Made by a program: the position numbers and the translations under genes. Positions 57,544 to 64,000 of a DNA stretch of 64,000 nt are shown one piece after another (positions within the stretch are counted from its first letter, which is position 1; every line of letters begins with the position of its first letter). The notes beneath the pieces are model-generated. The model did not search any database, had not been told where the DNA came from, and saw only the letters and a program-made list of their open reading frames with translations. Source of the stretch: Microvenator marinus (GTDB lineage Bacteria; Myxococcota_A; Bradymonadia; Bradymonadales; Bradymonadaceae); the NCBI RefSeq assembly GCF_007993755.1, contig NZ_CP042467.1, forward strand, positions 1,203,501 through 1,267,500, read 5' to 3'.

Positions 57544-58317
57544 ATGCAAAACCAATTCGCGTCTCCGGCAGAGCGACTCACGTTCATCCAGACCGACTCT
57601 TTTGCGAGTTTTGTAACCTGGTTCGGCGTGCTTTGTGCCGGGGCGCTCGGCAACATCCCTTCTCAGGATGTAATGCAACGCGTGTTTTCTGCACGAAGCG
57701 TCAAGGTGGCTCGAATCGCCTGTTTCAGCGCCGGCACCCTCTATCTCACGCTCGGCCTCGTCCCCATTTTGATGGGCCTCGCCGGCCATATGCTTTTTGA
57801 AGAAGGCACAGCCACGCTGCCCAAGCTCGCGGCGCTCTTCCTGCATCCCGCGCTCGCGGTGGTTTTCGTGGTGACACTGATGAGCACCGTGCTCTCCACC
57901 ATCGATAGCGCCCTGCTCGCCCCGGCCACTGTACTTTCCCGCAATGTTCTGGCTCATATCCCGCGCTTCTCTCACATAAACCCACTGCGCCTAACTCGCG
58001 TATCGCTGGCCATTGTGGCGGCTTGTGCCACGGGCCTCGCGTACTGGGGAGAATCCGCCTACGCCATGCTCGAGTCCGGTTACGAACTCGGCATGGTGAG
58101 CCTGCTCGCCCCTCTGGTCTACGGGGTCTACCTCGAATCCCCGTGCCCTAGAGGTGCCATCGCCTCGATGCTCAGTGGAACCTTGGTCTGGCTGCTCCAC
58201 GCGATCGTCGGCTGGGAGAGCTTCTTTAATCTCTCCGAACTCCTCCCTGTGGGTCTGAATTGCACCGCCCTATCTTTTATGGCCTACTGGCTTTTCAGGA
58301 CTCGCACTTCTTCATGA
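57544..58317 (+). pseudogene. Sodium:solute symporter, C-terminal half only
   Basis: 257 residues matching the second half of SSF-type sodium/solute symporters: GNIPSQDVMQRVFSARSVKVAR is the loop after about helix 7, and LMSTVLSTIDSALLAPATVLSRNVL is the following conserved helix. Full-length members have about 450-550 residues, so some 200-250 residues including the first helices and most of the sodium site are missing. No upstream sequence encodes them; the HAD-like gene ends 6 bp before. There is no Shine-Dalgarno before the ATG. It is most likely a remnant, though a lineage-specific short form cannot be excluded. Confidence 0.7.
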
Positions 58318-58371: not shown

Positions 58372-58662
58372 ATGATAGTTTCCTTTGATGATGGTACCGC
58401 CGAGGAGTTTTTCAACACTGGAAAAATTCCCCGGAAACACTGCCGCTGGATGAACGTTAGCAGGATCGTAGCGCGAAAGCTCGACATGCTGAACGCTGCA
58501 GCGGAGCTAAGCGATTTGCGAAGTCCTCCTGGAAACCAACTTGAAGCACTCAAAGGCTCCTTGGATGGCAAGTTTAGCATACGAGTCAACGACCAGTGGC
58601 GGATTGTCTTCGGGTGGACCGATGATGGACCGGAAGAAGTGAAAGTGGTGGACTACCACTGA
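58372..58662 (+). CDS. higB: HigB-type toxin (RelE/ParE superfamily)
   Basis: A 96-residue RelE-fold protein of the HigB/plasmid-killer group, a ribosome-dependent mRNA interferase. Seen: MIVSFDDGTAEEFF, KLDMLNAAAELSDLRSPPGN, LEALKG and SIRVNDQWRIVFGW, with the basic and aromatic residues of the C-terminal strands. Toxin before antitoxin is the usual HigBA order. AAGGG lies seven bases upstream of the ATG. It ends 11 bp before the antitoxin start. Confidence 0.92.
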   Translation: MIVSFDDGTAEEFFNTGKIPRKHCRWMNVSRIVARKLDMLNAAAELSDLRSPPGNQLEALKGSLDGKFSIRVNDQWRIVFGWTDDGPEEVKVVDYH

Positions 58663-58673
58663 GGAGATTGAAA

Positions 58674-58982
58674 ATGAGACGAACTATAAAGCGAAAGCCC
58701 ACGACACCTGGCGAGATGCTATCCGAAGAATTCTTGATTCCCGCAGAACTCACGCAATCGGAATTTGCTCTGCATCTCGGAGTCGATGTCAAAACTATCA
58801 ACCGATTGATAAACGGGCGAACACGATTGACGCCTGCCTTGGCATACAAAATCGCGGCAGCACTCAATACCACGCCGGACTTTTGGATGAATCTTCAAAT
58901 GGCTGTAGACCTTTACGATGTATCGGCCGATTCAGCACCACTCCCTCTTCCACTACCGCAATTCCAACATCCTCAAGGATAG
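58674..58982 (+). CDS. higA: HigA-type antitoxin, XRE helix-turn-helix
   Basis: A 102-residue Xre-family antitoxin and autorepressor. TTPGEMLSEEFLIPAELTQSEFA-like sequence leads into the helix-turn-helix (LGVDVKTINRLINGRTRLTP), and NTTPDFWMNLQ is a HigA/VapI hallmark. The C-terminus is Pro-rich. The ATG at 58674 has GAGGAG seven bases upstream. It should bind the palindrome overlapping the promoter and neutralise HigB. The AAA+ ATPase gene starts 2 bp after its stop, so read-through could couple the two modules. Confidence 0.93.
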   Translation: MRRTIKRKPTTPGEMLSEEFLIPAELTQSEFALHLGVDVKTINRLINGRTRLTPALAYKIAAALNTTPDFWMNLQMAVDLYDVSADSAPLPLPLPQFQHPQG

Positions 58983-58984
58983 CC

Positions 58985-60133
58985 ATGTCAAACGCTCAAA
59001 GCCCACCCGCCGAATCCGTTTGGGCCGAAGAACTCGCCTTTCTACAAAAGTTTGACGACGGCCCGAGGCCGCCGGGTTGGCGCCTGACACCCCGTGCCGT
59101 GGTCACCTTCATTTGCGGCTCCAACGAACCGCTGAAAGCTGGAAAAGGAAAGGCCAACGAGCTGCAAATCACGCAAAAATTCGTGGGTCCAAAAGATCTG
59201 ATCGAGCGCTCGGTCATTACGCTTGCGGGTGAGCGTGGCCTCTTATTGGTAGGCGAGCCGGGAACGGCCAAGTCGATGCTCTCGGAGCTCTTGGCGGCGG
59301 CTATTTCTGGAACCAGCGCACTCACGATTCAGGGCTCAGCCGGAACCACCGAAGACCAGCTCAGGTACGGATGGAACTACGCCATGCTCATGGCGAATGG
59401 ACCCACCCCCGAGGCGCTCGTGCCCTCGCCCGTCATGACCGGTATGCGAGCAGGCGCCATAGTACGCGTTGAAGAAGTCACGCGCTGCCTTCCTGAAGTC
59501 CAGGACGCGCTCATCAGCATCATCAGTGACCGCCGACTCGCCGTGCCCGAGCTTGCGGAAGGGGAAGGGGCGCGAATCGAGTTCGCCGAGCCAGGGTTCA
59601 ACGTGATAGCCACGGCAAACCTGAGAGACCGCGGCGTCTCCGAGATGTCGGCAGCCCTGAAGCGCCGATTCAACTTTGAGATCGTGCACCCCATAGCCGA
59701 TCTCGCCCACGAAAAAGCCCTGGTTCTAAGACGCGCGAAATCAGTCGTTACGCGCACCGGAGTTGGGTTCAACGTGGATGAAGCTGTGCTCGAAGCCATC
59801 GTCACGGCGTTCAGAGACTTGAGGTCGGGCCGAAGCGCCGAAGGCTGGGCTGTAGAGCGGCCATCCACTGTGATGAGCACCGCCGAATGCGTGGCAGTGG
59901 CCTCGGATATCGGCCTTCAAAACGCCTATTTCGCGTCTGATCGAGACCCTCTCTCGCTCGTGCCCTCGTACCTCTTGGGCGTAGTCCTCAAAGACAACCC
60001 TGTTGACCGCTCCAAACTGCTGGCCTATTGGGATAGCACGGTGAAGCGCAGGGCGGACTCAGGAGCGCGCCTCTGGAAACGCCTCCTTGAATTGCGAAAT
60101 GTCGTGGAACAAGCCCACGCTGAAGCATTCTGA
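58985..60133 (+). CDS. MoxR-type AAA+ ATPase
   Basis: A 382-residue MoxR-group AAA+ protein, expected to form hexamers that remodel a protein partner through a vWA protein. Seen: Walker A LVGEPGTAKS, GSAGTTEDQLRYG, Walker B-type AIVRVEEVTRCLPEVQDALIS, sensor 1 VIATANLRDRGVSEMS and the arginine-finger segment ALKRRFNFE. AAGG lies eight bases upstream of the ATG. It starts 2 bp after higA and ends 6 bp before the DUF5682-vWA gene, so it forms an operon with that gene and the SWIM gene. Confidence 0.9.
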   Translation: MSNAQSPPAESVWAEELAFLQKFDDGPRPPGWRLTPRAVVTFICGSNEPLKAGKGKANELQITQKFVGPKDLIERSVITLAGERGLLLVGEPGTAKSMLSELLAAAISGTSALTIQGSAGTTEDQLRYGWNYAMLMANGPTPEALVPSPVMTGMRAGAIVRVEEVTRCLPEVQDALISIISDRRLAVPELAEGEGARIEFAEPGFNVIATANLRDRGVSEMSAALKRRFNFEIVHPIADLAHEKALVLRRAKSVVTRTGVGFNVDEAVLEAIVTAFRDLRSGRSAEGWAVERPSTVMSTAECVAVASDIGLQNAYFASDRDPLSLVPSYLLGVVLKDNPVDRSKLLAYWDSTVKRRADSGARLWKRLLELRNVVEQAHAEAF

Positions 60134-60139
60134 GGAACT

Positions 60140-63100
60140 ATGGGCCAGGACGCTCAAAATCTAGAGAAGCTCGCGAGGGCTGAACTAGCCGACCTCGTGG
60201 CGTGCAGGACACCGCTCCTCATCGGTGTTCGCCATCATTCGCCTGCACTTGCGGCCGCGATTCCTGAGCTCTTGGCGGACTTCAACCCTGACGTCATTCT
60301 CATCGAACTGCCCATGGAGTTCGAGCCCTGGCTTCAATGGCTTGGACACTCGGAAACTAAGGCCCCCGTCGCCCTTGCGTCGGTAAACAAGGCTGGCGGA
60401 GGCCTTAGTTTCTATCCATTTGCGGAGTTTTCTCCGGAGTTTGCGGCCGTGAAGTGGGCCGTGGCACACAGCGTGCCGATCAGACCCTGTGACCTACCCT
60501 CAGGGGTGCGCGTGGATTTGGCCAGAGAGCCGCACGAACACTCCGACCAACCCACTATCTCAGCCGCACTCGAGACGCATTTTCATTCACCGGATTTCGA
60601 AAGCCTTTGGGACCGCGCGGTCGAGGTTCACGCTGCGGATGCCGACGCCGAGGCGCTTCGAAGGAGCGCGCTCTACATCGGCTGGGCATTGCGCCAGGAC
60701 GCCGAGGGAGTTGTGCCTGAGGTGGATCTGATTCGCGAAGCTCATATGCGCAAAGTGCTCGCGGAGTGTCCGGGCAAACGTGTGGCCATGGTCATCGGGT
60801 CTTTTCATGCACCGGCGATAGCCAAACCGCCAGACTCCTCGCCAGATCTGAGCGCTGCGGCCCACGAAATGGTGACCTCGTTCATTCCGTACTCCTTTGA
60901 GCTCTTGGATTCGCGCTCAAATTATCCGGCCGGGATTCGCGATCCGATGTGGCAGCAACGGGTCTTAGAGGCGCATCGTGCCAAGGCCAAACTCGATGAC
61001 ACCGTTGCGGACGTCATCGTGCAAATTTGTCGGGAGATCCGCCGTGTTGGGCATATCGCAGGCGTTCCAGACGCTGACGCGGCTTCACGTATGGCCATGG
61101 ATTTGGCGGCCCTTCGCGACCTCCCGGGCCCCGGCCGCCAGGAAGTCGTGGAAGCTATTCAGTCAGCGCTCGCGAGGGGCGAAATCGGCGGTCGTGGACG
61201 GATTTTGGCTAACGCGATGGACACCGTGATGGTTGGGCGCGAACGCGGGAAAATCCCAGCGGCGGCGCCAAAATCGGGGCTATCAGCCCATGTGCAAAAT
61301 CTCTTCTCCGAGCTCGGATTGCCCGGCCCTTCGACACGTTCAGAGGCCCCCACCACGCTCAGACTCGAGCCCATGCGAAATACGCGCGACCGCGACCGCC
61401 ATATCGCTCTGAAGCGCCTTGCGTCATGCGCAATTCCTTACGCCAAGGAAGGCCAAGTTCAAGGTCTCGGCAACGCCGAAGCCGTGTCCACATCGTGGGA
61501 AATTCAATGGCAACCAGGCACCGACGCCATGTTGGAGCTCGCCGGCATTTGGGGTGTCACACTCGAACAAGCCACCCGCGGTGCCATTCAGCGAAGAGAA
61601 AGCCAGCTCAAGCTCGACGAATCCTTGACGCCTTCGGAAAGGTTGAGGGTTTTGACCGAATGCGCGGATTGCGGCCTCGTGGACATGGTCCAAGAGCGGC
61701 TCGACGCCCTTGAAACTGAGTTCGTCAACGAAGCAGACCTGACGGCCCTATTGGGGCTGATGCGCTTTTTCGAGCGTATTCACGGCGGTCATTTCCCTGC
61801 CCTCAACTCCGACTCAACGCTTGTTTTGCCACCCCGCGCCCCCTTCTTGGCAGCCGCACTGCGCGCCATCGAGGGCTTGATCGGTAGCGAAAACGCGAGC
61901 GACGCCGCAGACCTTATGGAGATCGTGCTCCTCGTTCGGGCTCAGCGAGAAGAAGAAACGCTCGGGCTTGGACGCCTCTTCTATACCCTCAAGACGTTTA
62001 GGACCGAGGCCTCTCCACTCATTCAGGGGGCTGCGACCCTCGCGCTTCGCGTCTGTGATGAGTTGGAGCCAGAGAGATTTGTGGAAGAGACAGGAGCCTG
62101 GATTGACGCTGGTGTGGACCAGTCAGCCCGCCAAACCATGAGCGGTCGCATCAAGGGTCTGCTCGTTGCCGGTTCGGGAATGTTTGAGTCCGATGCTTCG
62201 GATTTACGCGGCATTTCGACCCGGATTCACACCATTGAGGACGAGGCGTTTCTCGAGCGACTCCCGGCCCTTCGCGAGGGTTTTGACGTTCTGACCTATG
62301 GTGCACGTGACCAACTCCTCGAGTCGTTGCAAGACGCCTTCCCGAAGGCGCTGGACCCACGCGGTGCGCGTGGTTTTGAGTTCGAGGAGAATGCAGCGTT
62401 TATCGCGCTCCTTAAGACAGCCGACCATCGAGCCTTCACGCGTGCTCAGGAGATTTTTGAGGCGCCAAGACAAGCGGAGTTCACAGACGTTCAGACGCCT
62501 GAAGAAACCTTGGGCGCCACCTCGAACTCGCTGGATCCCCTCACCCGCTGGAAACTCATCCTCGGGCGCCAGAAGGACCGCCAGCAAAATGCAGGCTCGG
62601 TGGCGCGTGCCTTGGACCAACTCTACGGGCAAGGCCAAGGCGAAGGATCAGGACGCGGCATCGGGCAAGGTGGTGGCCAAGAAGACGCCTATCCTTCCAT
62701 GCGCGAATGGACCGAAGATATCGAAGCCCTCTTTGGTACTAAAGTCCGCGAAGAAGTCATGGCGCGCGCCATCGAACTGGGCCATGCAACCGTAGCGTTC
62801 GAGCTCGAAAACGCGCCCGTAGAGCCCTCAATCGAGCTTCTGGAAGGCCTGCTTTCGCTCAAAGGTAGTCTCTCCGAGTCACAAATTGCGCATTTGAGAC
62901 CCTTGATTCGCTCGGTCGTTCAAGCCCTCGTCAAAAAGCTCGCAAACCGCATTATGCCTGCCTTAACGGGCATTTCGACCCCTCGCCCGACTCGCCGAAA
63001 AGGCGGTCCAATTGACTTCAAACGCACCATCGGGGCGAACTTAGACCGTGCGAGACGTGACGAAGATGGCGTGGCACGTATCGTACCGGACAAGATTTAC

Positions 63101-63631
63101 TTTAAGACTCGTGCCAAACGATCTCTGGACTGGCATATCTCCATCGTAGTGGACGTCTCCGGCTCCATGGAACCAAGCGTCATCTACAGCGCGCTCATGG
63201 CTTCGATCCTTCAAGGCCTGCCTTCAGTCAGCCTTTCATTCATCGCGTTCAACACCCAGGTTATCGACCTTTCTCACCTTGTCGACGACCCATTATCCCT
63301 CCTCCTAGAAGTGGAAGTTGGAGGCGGTACGCATATCGCAAAGGCGCTCAAGTACGCGAGAGAGCGAGTTAAGGTTCCAAACCGCACAATCCTCGCGCTG
63401 GTCACGGACTTTGAAGAAGGTTGGTCGGCGGACGGCATGGTCCGCGAAGCGCGTGTTCTGGCCGAGAGCGGCGTCCACCTCCTTGGTCTTGCGGCATTAG
63501 ATGACTCAGGCAAACCAAGGTACAACAACGCGCTCGCGAGCCTAATGGTCGCAGCAGGTATGCCTGTTGCGGCGCTCACTCCGATGGAGCTTGCGGAATG
63601 GGTCGGCGATGTCATGCGAGGCAAGAAATGA
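60140..63631 (+). CDS. DUF5682-like protein fused to a C-terminal vWA domain
   Basis: A 1163-residue cytoplasmic protein. Residues about 20-750 resemble DUF5682: LLIGVRHHSPALAAAIPELL, DVILIELPMEFEPW and AMVIGSFHAPAI recall the His/Glu motifs of the TraB/EreA/ChaN-like hydrolase group. A Gly/Gln-rich hinge (GQGQGEGSGRGIGQGGGQ) lies near 830-850. Residues about 993-1160 are a vWA domain with a complete MIDAS: DVSGSME near 1004, GGGTHIAK and VTDFEEG. In other genomes as I recall them, DUF5682 and vWA proteins are separate neighbours of a MoxR ATPase; here they are one chain. GAGG precedes the ATG. The stop overlaps the SWIM gene start (ATGA). Confidence 0.85.
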   Translation: MGQDAQNLEKLARAELADLVACRTPLLIGVRHHSPALAAAIPELLADFNPDVILIELPMEFEPWLQWLGHSETKAPVALASVNKAGGGLSFYPFAEFSPEFAAVKWAVAHSVPIRPCDLPSGVRVDLAREPHEHSDQPTISAALETHFHSPDFESLWDRAVEVHAADADAEALRRSALYIGWALRQDAEGVVPEVDLIREAHMRKVLAECPGKRVAMVIGSFHAPAIAKPPDSSPDLSAAAHEMVTSFIPYSFELLDSRSNYPAGIRDPMWQQRVLEAHRAKAKLDDTVADVIVQICREIRRVGHIAGVPDADAASRMAMDLAALRDLPGPGRQEVVEAIQSALARGEIGGRGRILANAMDTVMVGRERGKIPAAAPKSGLSAHVQNLFSELGLPGPSTRSEAPTTLRLEPMRNTRDRDRHIALKRLASCAIPYAKEGQVQGLGNAEAVSTSWEIQWQPGTDAMLELAGIWGVTLEQATRGAIQRRESQLKLDESLTPSERLRVLTECADCGLVDMVQERLDALETEFVNEADLTALLGLMRFFERIHGGHFPALNSDSTLVLPPRAPFLAAALRAIEGLIGSENASDAADLMEIVLLVRAQREEETLGLGRLFYTLKTFRTEASPLIQGAATLALRVCDELEPERFVEETGAWIDAGVDQSARQTMSGRIKGLLVAGSGMFESDASDLRGISTRIHTIEDEAFLERLPALREGFDVLTYGARDQLLESLQDAFPKALDPRGARGFEFEENAAFIALLKTADHRAFTRAQEIFEAPRQAEFTDVQTPEETLGATSNSLDPLTRWKLILGRQKDRQQNAGSVARALDQLYGQGQGEGSGRGIGQGGGQEDAYPSMREWTEDIEALFGTKVREEVMARAIELGHATVAFELENAPVEPSIELLEGLLSLKGSLSESQIAHLRPLIRSVVQALVKKLANRIMPALTGISTPRPTRRKGGPIDFKRTIGANLDRARRDEDGVARIVPDKIYFKTRAKRSLDWHISIVVDVSGSMEPSVIYSALMASILQGLPSVSLSFIAFNTQVIDLSHLVDDPLSLLLEVEVGGGTHIAKALKYARERVKVPNRTILALVTDFEEGWSADGMVREARVLAESGVHLLGLAALDDSGKPRYNNALASLMVAAGMPVAALTPMELAEWVGDVMRGKK

Positions 63632-64000
63632 AAAAGCCAACCATCTCGCCGGACGCACTTGCGCAGATTACCGAGGCCGTACCCGGCCGAATTCGCAAGA
63701 AATTCGATGCTGCACCTGATGCTGCCAACGCCTGGCAATGGACAGAAGACGGCGCTGATTTTGTGATCGCAGCCGATGATCAAACGGTAAAACTGAGCGG
63801 CCCATCCATCGCAAGCCCTGAGCAAGTCTCGTGCACCTGCCTCTTGAGCCCTCGATGTTTACACGTCTTGAGCGTAGTACAGACGCTCGCGCTCGATGAC
63901 GCAAGCCCGATTGAAGTAGCGCAACCAGAGCCCGTTGAGGTGGCTGAAACACCTTTTGAAGGCCTCGATGCGGCACAGATTGAAGCCGCAGAAATAGCAT
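63628..64000 (+). CDS. SWIM zinc-finger protein, partial at window end
   Basis: An open frame starting with ATG that overlaps the previous stop by 4 bp and running past the window edge (124 residues seen). It contains a SWIM-type zinc finger: C69, C71, C77 and H79 in CTCLLSPRCLHV (CxC-x5-CxH). Before it, WQWTEDGADFVIAADDQTVKL resembles the usual strand region in front of SWIM motifs. SWIM domains bind DNA or proteins. Being the third gene of the unit, it is likely the partner or substrate adaptor of the MoxR/vWA pair. Confidence 0.85.
   Translation, partial: MKKPTISPDALAQITEAVPGRIRKKFDAAPDAANAWQWTEDGADFVIAADDQTVKLSGPSIASPEQVSCTCLLSPRCLHVLSVVQTLALDDASPIEVAQPEPVEVAETPFEGLDAAQIEAAEIA

Follow-up and report, generated by a model that had tools for sequence, protein, structure and literature searches.

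Closest described systems and the Microvenator marinus locus

Machines built from a MoxR AAA+ ATPase and a vWA protein are already known. The NorQ-NorD and CoxD-CoxE pairs combine a MoxR ATPase with a CoxE-type vWA protein carrying a metal ion-dependent adhesion site (MIDAS), and four MoxR-vWA ternary conflict systems, namely VMAP, iSTAND, FtsH and beta-propeller, have been described, in which extra components are added to a MoxR and vWA core (PMC7159879). In Escherichia coli, the genes yehL (MoxR), yehM (DUF5682), yehP (vWA) and yehQ (SWIM) are annotated in K-12 as putative or uncharacterised. Here we describe the counterpart of these genes at the end of a 64,000-nt window of Microvenator marinus (NZ_CP042467.1; coordinates are window positions unless marked otherwise), where three genes encode a MoxR ATPase, a protein in which DUF5682 is fused to a vWA domain, and a SWIM zinc-finger protein. 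What is new is a MoxR-vWA machine with a putative Tiki-fold hydrolase module and with new partners.

The three-gene layout given in the initial annotation was correct, as both the coordinates and the Pfam matches agree with it. The MoxR gene and the DUF5682-vWA gene are separated by 6 bp, the latter overlaps the SWIM gene by 4 bp (ATGA), and the SWIM gene extends 1364 bp beyond the end of the window. With E. coli yehLMPQ, the locus shares the order MoxR, DUF5682, MIDAS-vWA and SWIM, and a DUF4132 gene lies upstream in E. coli as it does in the clade to which the window copy belongs (hereafter the window clade). However, DUF5682 and vWA are two genes in E. coli, YehM is only about 21% identical, and the E. 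coli DUF4132 protein (YehI, 1210 residues) shows no detectable relation to the giant protein of about 1600 residues found in the window clade. Unlike NorD and CoxE, the vWA chain described here has its own putative hydrolase, and the neighbouring genes, inspected without a systematic search, showed no redox-enzyme client. Compared with the ternary conflict systems (PMC7159879), the third components are SWIM, DUF4132/giant or DUF5691, there is no enrichment of defence genes, and the vWA domain stands at the C-terminus behind a constant N-terminal enzyme domain, rather than being followed by variable effectors. In addition, the beta-propeller-type MoxR model PF20030 scored 25 bits against the window MoxR, below its cut-off of 27, and Pfam detected no VMAP, iSTAND or other named third component in the SWIM, giant and DUF4132 proteins, although highly divergent forms could escape such a search.

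A predicted Tiki/TraB fold in the N-terminal domain of DUF5682

The DUF5682 model (PF18934) matches residues 42-905 of the fusion protein with 507 bits. The N-terminus carries GVRHHS, followed by a strand that ends in IELP and, later, by GSFH, which are comparable to the GTAH, VELD and GAGH of TraB. When a profile of 14 DUF5682 N-domains was aligned by HHalign with 15 TraB proteins, themselves collected with the Pfam TraB model, the match reached 98.1% (E 1.3e-13), with GVRH/GTAH, IELP/VELD, RExxM/RDxxM and GSFH/GAGH all in register, while the same N-domain profile gave 0.9% against MoxR. The Pfam DUF5682 model also matched three genes below its cut-off (in G010, G011 and G012; E 1e-4 to 7e-4), and these are genes matched by the TraB model at E ~1e-31. 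In the reverse direction, the Pfam TraB model gave weak matches in 4 of the 14 N-domains, the best at E 0.018.

As the list from a full-length structure search was filled by vWA matches, the N-domain was folded alone, giving an AlphaFold2 model with a predicted local distance difference test score (pLDDT) of 90.1 and a predicted template modelling score of 0.88. Foldseek retrieved TraB only at E 0.0018, together with weak EreC and PMT rows, and a second structural alignment was added. The latter placed TraB first (Z 10.5, 204 residues, 5.0 Å), followed by ChaN (7.9) and HopBA1 (7.5), which we take to have an EreA/ChaN-like fold, with further rows for EreC (6.5), PMT (6.1), Bcr135 (5.9) and RRSP (5.8). 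Ranks 1-16 all belonged to the Tiki/TraB superfamily (Z 5.6-10.5), and the next row, outside this group, fell to 4.4. In a viral structure library, the best match was a Marseillevirus TraB-family protein (E 6e-5), with nothing else strong. TraB, EreC, PMT, Bcr135 and RRSP have been tied to the Tiki superfamily in the literature (PMC6254334), and ChaN is tied to it by the Pfam text.

Nine residues (H32, E56, E100, D118, R185, R199, M203, G220 and H223) are identical in 17/17 representatives from eight subclades, and H32, E56, D118, R199 and H223 align with invariant TraB residues; their invariance across the subclades would be expected of a working enzyme. The superfamily motif of two GxxH and a conserved Glu was found in the order of the fold (GVRH 29-32, E56, GSFH 220-223). 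Cleavage by RRSP, which is an endopeptidase of the Tiki family, requires its 2His/2Glu residues, Tiki is reported to be metal-dependent, and PMT is without the catalytic residues (PMC6254334). Thus, DUF5682 resembles the Tiki/TraB/PrgY/EreA/ChaN proteins in its two GxxH motifs, the Glu after the second strand, the RE/RD helix motif and the predicted fold, but it differs from them in falling under the Pfam TraB score, in its fusion to a helical region and a vWA domain, and in being nearly always accompanied by MoxR. Because the profile match, the Pfam cross-matches, the fold of the model and the invariant residues agree, membership of the N-terminal ~240 residues in the Tiki/TraB/EreA/ChaN fold is well supported by sequence and model. 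Profile and structure evidence thus backs the possible hydrolase-like region of the initial annotation, which can now be given a superfamily; hydrolase activity is still putative.

The MoxR ATPase and the CoxE-type vWA arm

The MoxR protein matches AAA_5 (PF07728) with 128.7 bits against a cut-off of 22, and it is assigned to the YehL type by its 47% identity to E. coli YehL and its position next to a DUF5682 gene. Its nearest solved sequences are the Midasin AAA domains (E 4e-24). At the other end of the fusion protein, PF05762 (VWA_CoxE) matches residues 934-1155 with 174.5 bits against a cut-off of 26.4, which identifies a CoxE-type vWA. The MIDAS is complete, with DVSGS at residue 1005, T1064 in GGGT, and D1090, and the residues D1005, S1007, S1009, T1064 and D1090 are invariant among 53 homologues, bearing out the full MIDAS first reported for this protein. 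Structural matches of the vWA domain include NorD-VWA, from a NorQ-NorD complex, and MDN1-MIDAS (Z 16.4, 191 residues). These MoxR and vWA matches fit a ring ATPase pulling on a MIDAS-bound partner. Between the two ends, the full-length AlphaFold2 model, with a pLDDT of 84.6, has a largely helical middle and a partly disordered linker that leads to the CoxE-type vWA. A likeness to TROVE/Ro60 at rank 3 of the full-length structure search had a root-mean-square deviation of 18.7 and was not used.

Conservation of the gene set

The gene layout is not due to chance. MoxR was present at 77/80 loci fetched (of the three loci without it, two begin at a contig end), vWA was fused to DUF5682 at 76/80, and SWIM lay downstream at 69 of the 70 testable loci. 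Homologues occurring without these neighbours had been named initially as evidence that would argue against a single system; homologues without MoxR or vWA are rare. Among 20 loci from the same phylum, one of which ends immediately after DUF5682, 19 had a MoxR gene adjoining DUF5682 and 18 a vWA, which was fused, downstream or upstream.

At least 583 relatives occur among species-representative genomes, and related sets were seen in Iodobacter, Streptomyces, Methylosinus, Rhizobium and others; homologues were grouped by k-mer clustering. SWIM lies downstream in the window type and the E. coli type, DUF4132 lies upstream in the E. coli type, and the rhizobial type has a different SWIM protein together with DUF5691. 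In a MoxR tree, the window copy falls in a fully supported clade (100/100) of 13 fused loci that spans Myxococcota, Planctomycetota and Actinomycetota, and the E. coli, rhizobial and divergent types form separate supported groups. The divergent DUF5682 class (L184, L185, L186) has proteins of about 1000 residues with the Pfam match split in two, a vWA protein of 500-580 residues upstream and no detected SWIM, and it retains the equivalents of H32, E56 and H223.

M. marinus itself carries a second, fused copy (L004:6276-12785) outside the window MoxR clade, with a DUF5682 22% identical to that of the window. It shares 4 bp with the end of rpe, the last gene of a def-fmt-rsmB-rpe run (genes named by reading the translations), and close relatives are present in G004, G007, G009 and G015. 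At another locus (L175:9452-14620), a Ser/Thr kinase gene lies on the opposite strand between DUF5682 and vWA, and a reverse transcriptase gene follows just past the vWA.

The SWIM protein itself scores 16.3 bits with the Pfam SWIM model, under the cut-off of 19.6. CxCx5CxH is the sole motif invariant in 12 SWIM partner proteins that are 14-35% identical to that of the window, and a search for solved relatives found none. The partner differs by clade, being replaced by another SWIM protein with DUF5691 or lacking a detectable SWIM, and it is thus a replaceable component. SWIM and DUF5691 are fused as one protein at L169:10902-13655, which suggests that the two act together in rhizobial-type sets.

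A five-gene cassette in two chromosomal halves

In the window clade, the cassette normally comprises five genes in the order DUF4132, giant of about 1600 residues, MoxR, DUF5682-vWA and SWIM. The giant lies upstream in 75/75 testable loci, and a small DUF4132 protein, typically of about 300 residues, is encoded upstream of MoxR in 71/74. Neither gene is present at the window locus; an intact giant and DUF4132 pair lies elsewhere in the M. marinus genome (genome positions 5329417-5335102), at a distance of 4.07 Mb, or of 1.78 Mb the other way if the contig is circular. The three-part machine proposed in the initial annotation is therefore too small, as the cassette of this clade has five genes, two of which lie elsewhere in this genome.

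The giant family is conserved in Myxococcota, Planctomycetota and Actinomycetota, nearly always with the small DUF4132 gene alongside. The giant has no Pfam or NCBIfam family and no convincing PDB match, and HHalign detected no relation to the YehI-type DUF4132 (0.2%). PDB matches to T4 lysozyme (E 0.004) were taken as chance, given that it is represented there by hundreds of variants.

Two genomes of the same family as M. marinus show other arrangements: in G009, giant and DUF4132 stand beside SWIM in permuted order, and in G008 the giant is encoded about 2 kb away from SWIM, on the other strand. The cassette is thus rearranged but kept in the family. Strong giant matches occurred in 12/190 same-phylum genomes, including 10/10 of those with a classified window-type DUF5682, a co-occurrence that is counted without regard to shared ancestry, for which reason its Fisher value is given no weight. 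The other two are G128, in which the giant is closely followed by a DUF5682 fragment at a contig end, and G042, with a partial giant only. The co-retention of two separate chromosomal halves gives an argument for a functional linkage, one that is independent of gene order.

The related operon of E. coli

In E. coli, yehL is preceded by yehF (WGR), the pseudogene yehH and yehI (DUF4132). The 6.5-kb yehL-yehQ stretch is present in 5311/5426 complete E. coli genomes (5155 at 80% coverage or more). The reduced-genome strain DGF-298 is without it (PMC10652928), and the stretch is therefore conserved yet dispensable in the laboratory. As yehH, between yehF and yehI (L187:7411-10270), is a pseudogene in K-12, this strain may have an incomplete version of the system. 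A possible LexA box about 10 bp before yehF (L187:6450-6465) is a degenerate CTG-N10-CAG, a pattern with 13 sites in this region against 7.5 expected, which is not clearly above chance, and it is not claimed.

Because the operon belongs to the E. coli core genome but the reduced-genome strain does without it, a conditional stress or maintenance role is expected rather than defence. Mitomycin C induces one DUF4132 and one WGR protein of Deinococcus via DdrO/IrrE, and MolR has been reported as a member of the LexA regulon (PMC8533742). By analogy, this induction hints at stress; it concerns relatives of the partners, not DUF5682.

Proposed mechanism and alternative explanations

According to the initial annotation, the genes form a single system whose ATPase works on the DUF5682 module via the vWA arm. 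Judged from sequence, this is still the best reading, as MoxR and vWA accompany DUF5682 nearly everywhere, fused or split, but the system has to be widened to five genes, and its SWIM component is replaceable. Our leading proposal, put forward tentatively, is an ATP-driven MoxR-vWA remodelling machine that gates or feeds a Tiki-fold hydrolase. MoxR would form a hexameric ring that docks on the vWA domain in the manner of NorQ and NorD, and ATP hydrolysis would move the vWA and, via the linker, open or load the hydrolase domain. The Tiki-fold domain would then cut an amide or ester bond of a protein or peptide substrate, with SWIM, DUF4132 and the giant possibly recognising the substrate or trigger. 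The most complete form of this proposal is a new AAA+-assisted hydrolase, with a MoxR ring, a MIDAS adaptor joined to a Tiki-fold protease or esterase, and a recognition arm of SWIM and DUF4132/giant, widespread in bacteria and with a related yehF-yehQ form in the E. coli core genome; stated so fully, it is possible but doubtful.

Several observations weigh against a gated hydrolase. None of the 14 homologues reaches the curated cut-off of PF01963 (TraB_PrgY_gumN), the structural score with TraB is moderate, and the Tiki superfamily has non-enzymatic members such as the haem-binding ChaN. In addition, the best-known tasks of MoxR-vWA pairs are to insert cofactors and assemble complexes, not to gate hydrolases, and part of the co-occurrence of giant and DUF5682 may reflect common descent.

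The alternative closest to these known functions is maturation, in which a MoxR-vWA chaperone supplies the Tiki-fold domain, or another client brought by SWIM/DUF4132, with a metal or cofactor and does not gate each turnover. The CoxE-type vWA and its match to NorD-VWA favour this explanation by analogy with NorQ-NorD and nitric oxide reductase, as do a passage in PMC13036017 stating that MoxR-vWA pairs insert metal ions, and the reported metal dependence of Tiki (PMC6254334). Also in its favour, E. coli molR, which directly precedes yehI in the list of PMC10652928, was named for molybdate use according to a passage in PMC8533742; in Deinococcus, however, molybdate genes did not follow the DUF4132 genes (PMC8533742). 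Covalent fusion of the putative client to the vWA would be a wasteful arrangement for a maturation that happens only once, and no client enzyme was noticed among the neighbours inspected, in a search that was not systematic. We regard maturation as unlikely.

The Tiki-fold domain could instead be a non-catalytic binding or scaffold module in a machine that only remodels complexes, as Midasin does. The proximity of MoxR to Midasin, the alignment of the vWA with MDN1-MIDAS and the non-enzymatic superfamily members are compatible with such a module. Nevertheless, residues of catalytic type are invariant across very divergent subclades, which would be needless for a mere scaffold, and this explanation appears quite unlikely.

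A conflict role had also been raised at first; in an anti-phage or abortive system of this kind, the Tiki-fold domain would be a toxin-like effector. MoxR-vWA ternary conflict systems are known, related vWA proteins carry peptidase effectors (PMC7159879, PMC12839542), and one relative on an Iodobacter plasmid adjoins restriction-modification genes. However, PADLOC-DB 2.0.0 gave no match for DUF5682-vWA or SWIM, and for MoxR only one at E 0.043. The proposed survey of neighbourhoods for defence islands yielded defence-model matches in about 2/62 neighbour genes, compared with 2-3/62 in control regions, and the pattern used to search viral contigs detected no relatives. They occur in 40/72,556 plasmids and in one unverified phage record. 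The latter (L025, MT835988.1), a faecal scaffold labelled 'Bacteriophage sp.', carries MoxR, DUF5682, vWA and an open reading frame (ORF) of about 1200 residues, and it may be a bacterial contig. Together with the near-universal presence in E. coli and a fused hydrolase that is constant rather than variable, these data do not support a phage-defence function, and a conflict system is very unlikely. That the neighbouring genes have no common function is extremely improbable, as order, overlaps and fusions are conserved across phyla and the two distant halves are retained together.

Features of the locus and its surroundings

The features are collected in Table 1. A HigBA pair, context outside the conserved cassette, ends 2 bp before the MoxR start, and MoxR may therefore be carried on an autoregulated higBA transcript; no higBA relatives were found at the 107 other loci searched. 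Further upstream, an ORF of 257 residues (57544-58317) resembles a sodium/solute symporter in its C-terminal part, and it may be what is left of such a gene.

Table 1. Positions of the cassette genes, their domains and motifs, and adjacent genes in M. marinus
Feature	Position	Strand	Basis
YehL-type MoxR AAA+ ATPase, 382 aa	58985..60133	+	PF07728 128.7 bits; 47% identity to E. coli YehL
MoxR Walker A GEPGTAKS, aa 90-97	59252-59275	+	
DUF5682-vWA fusion protein, 1163 aa (E. coli YehM + YehP as one chain)	60140..63631	+	PF18934, PF05762; AlphaFold2 mean pLDDT 84.6
Predicted Tiki/TraB-fold domain, aa 22-265	60203..60934	+	HHalign, AlphaFold2 model, structural matches, invariant residues
GVRH (aa 29-32)	60224-60235	+	
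E56	60305-60307	+	
GSFH (aa 220-223)	60797-60808	+	
Middle part of DUF5682, largely helical, aa 270-735	60947..62344	+	Model secondary structure
Gly-rich, partly disordered linker, aa 737-850	62348..62689	+	Several stretches with pLDDT <50
vWA domain with full MIDAS (aa 996-1160), preceded by a CoxE-type helical N-part (aa 854-942)	62699..63619	+	PF05762 174.5 bits; structural matches
MIDAS elements DVSGS, GGGT, D1090	63152-63166, 63320-63331, 63407-63409	+	
SWIM zinc-finger protein, 578 aa	63628..64000, continues to window-equivalent 65364	+	CxCx5CxH motif; Pfam SWIM sub-threshold
SWIM protein CxCx5CxH	63832-63864	+	
HigB-like toxin (context)	58372..58662	+	PF05015 71.9 bits
HigA antitoxin (context)	58668..58982	+	TIGR02607 88.4 bits
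Giant protein, ~1600 aa	L202:8354-13102 (genome 5330354-5335102)		

Implications

DUF5682 is named nowhere in the open-access literature searched, although closed literature or a database clan may already place the family, and the papers listed there for MoxR with TraB or Tiki do not connect the two. Two or more of the genes yehL, yehM, yehP and yehQ are named in just two papers of that literature, of which PMC10652928 is a deletion list. Relatives of the cassette are common to M. marinus, Streptomyces and E. coli, and YehM/DUF5682 stands unannotated in almost every E. coli. The placement in the Tiki/TraB/EreA group offers a concrete likely active site for mutation. Thus, a hitherto unexplained MoxR-vWA operon becomes a testable candidate for an ATP-gated hydrolase, and it gains two partner genes that are invisible to a reading based on the window.

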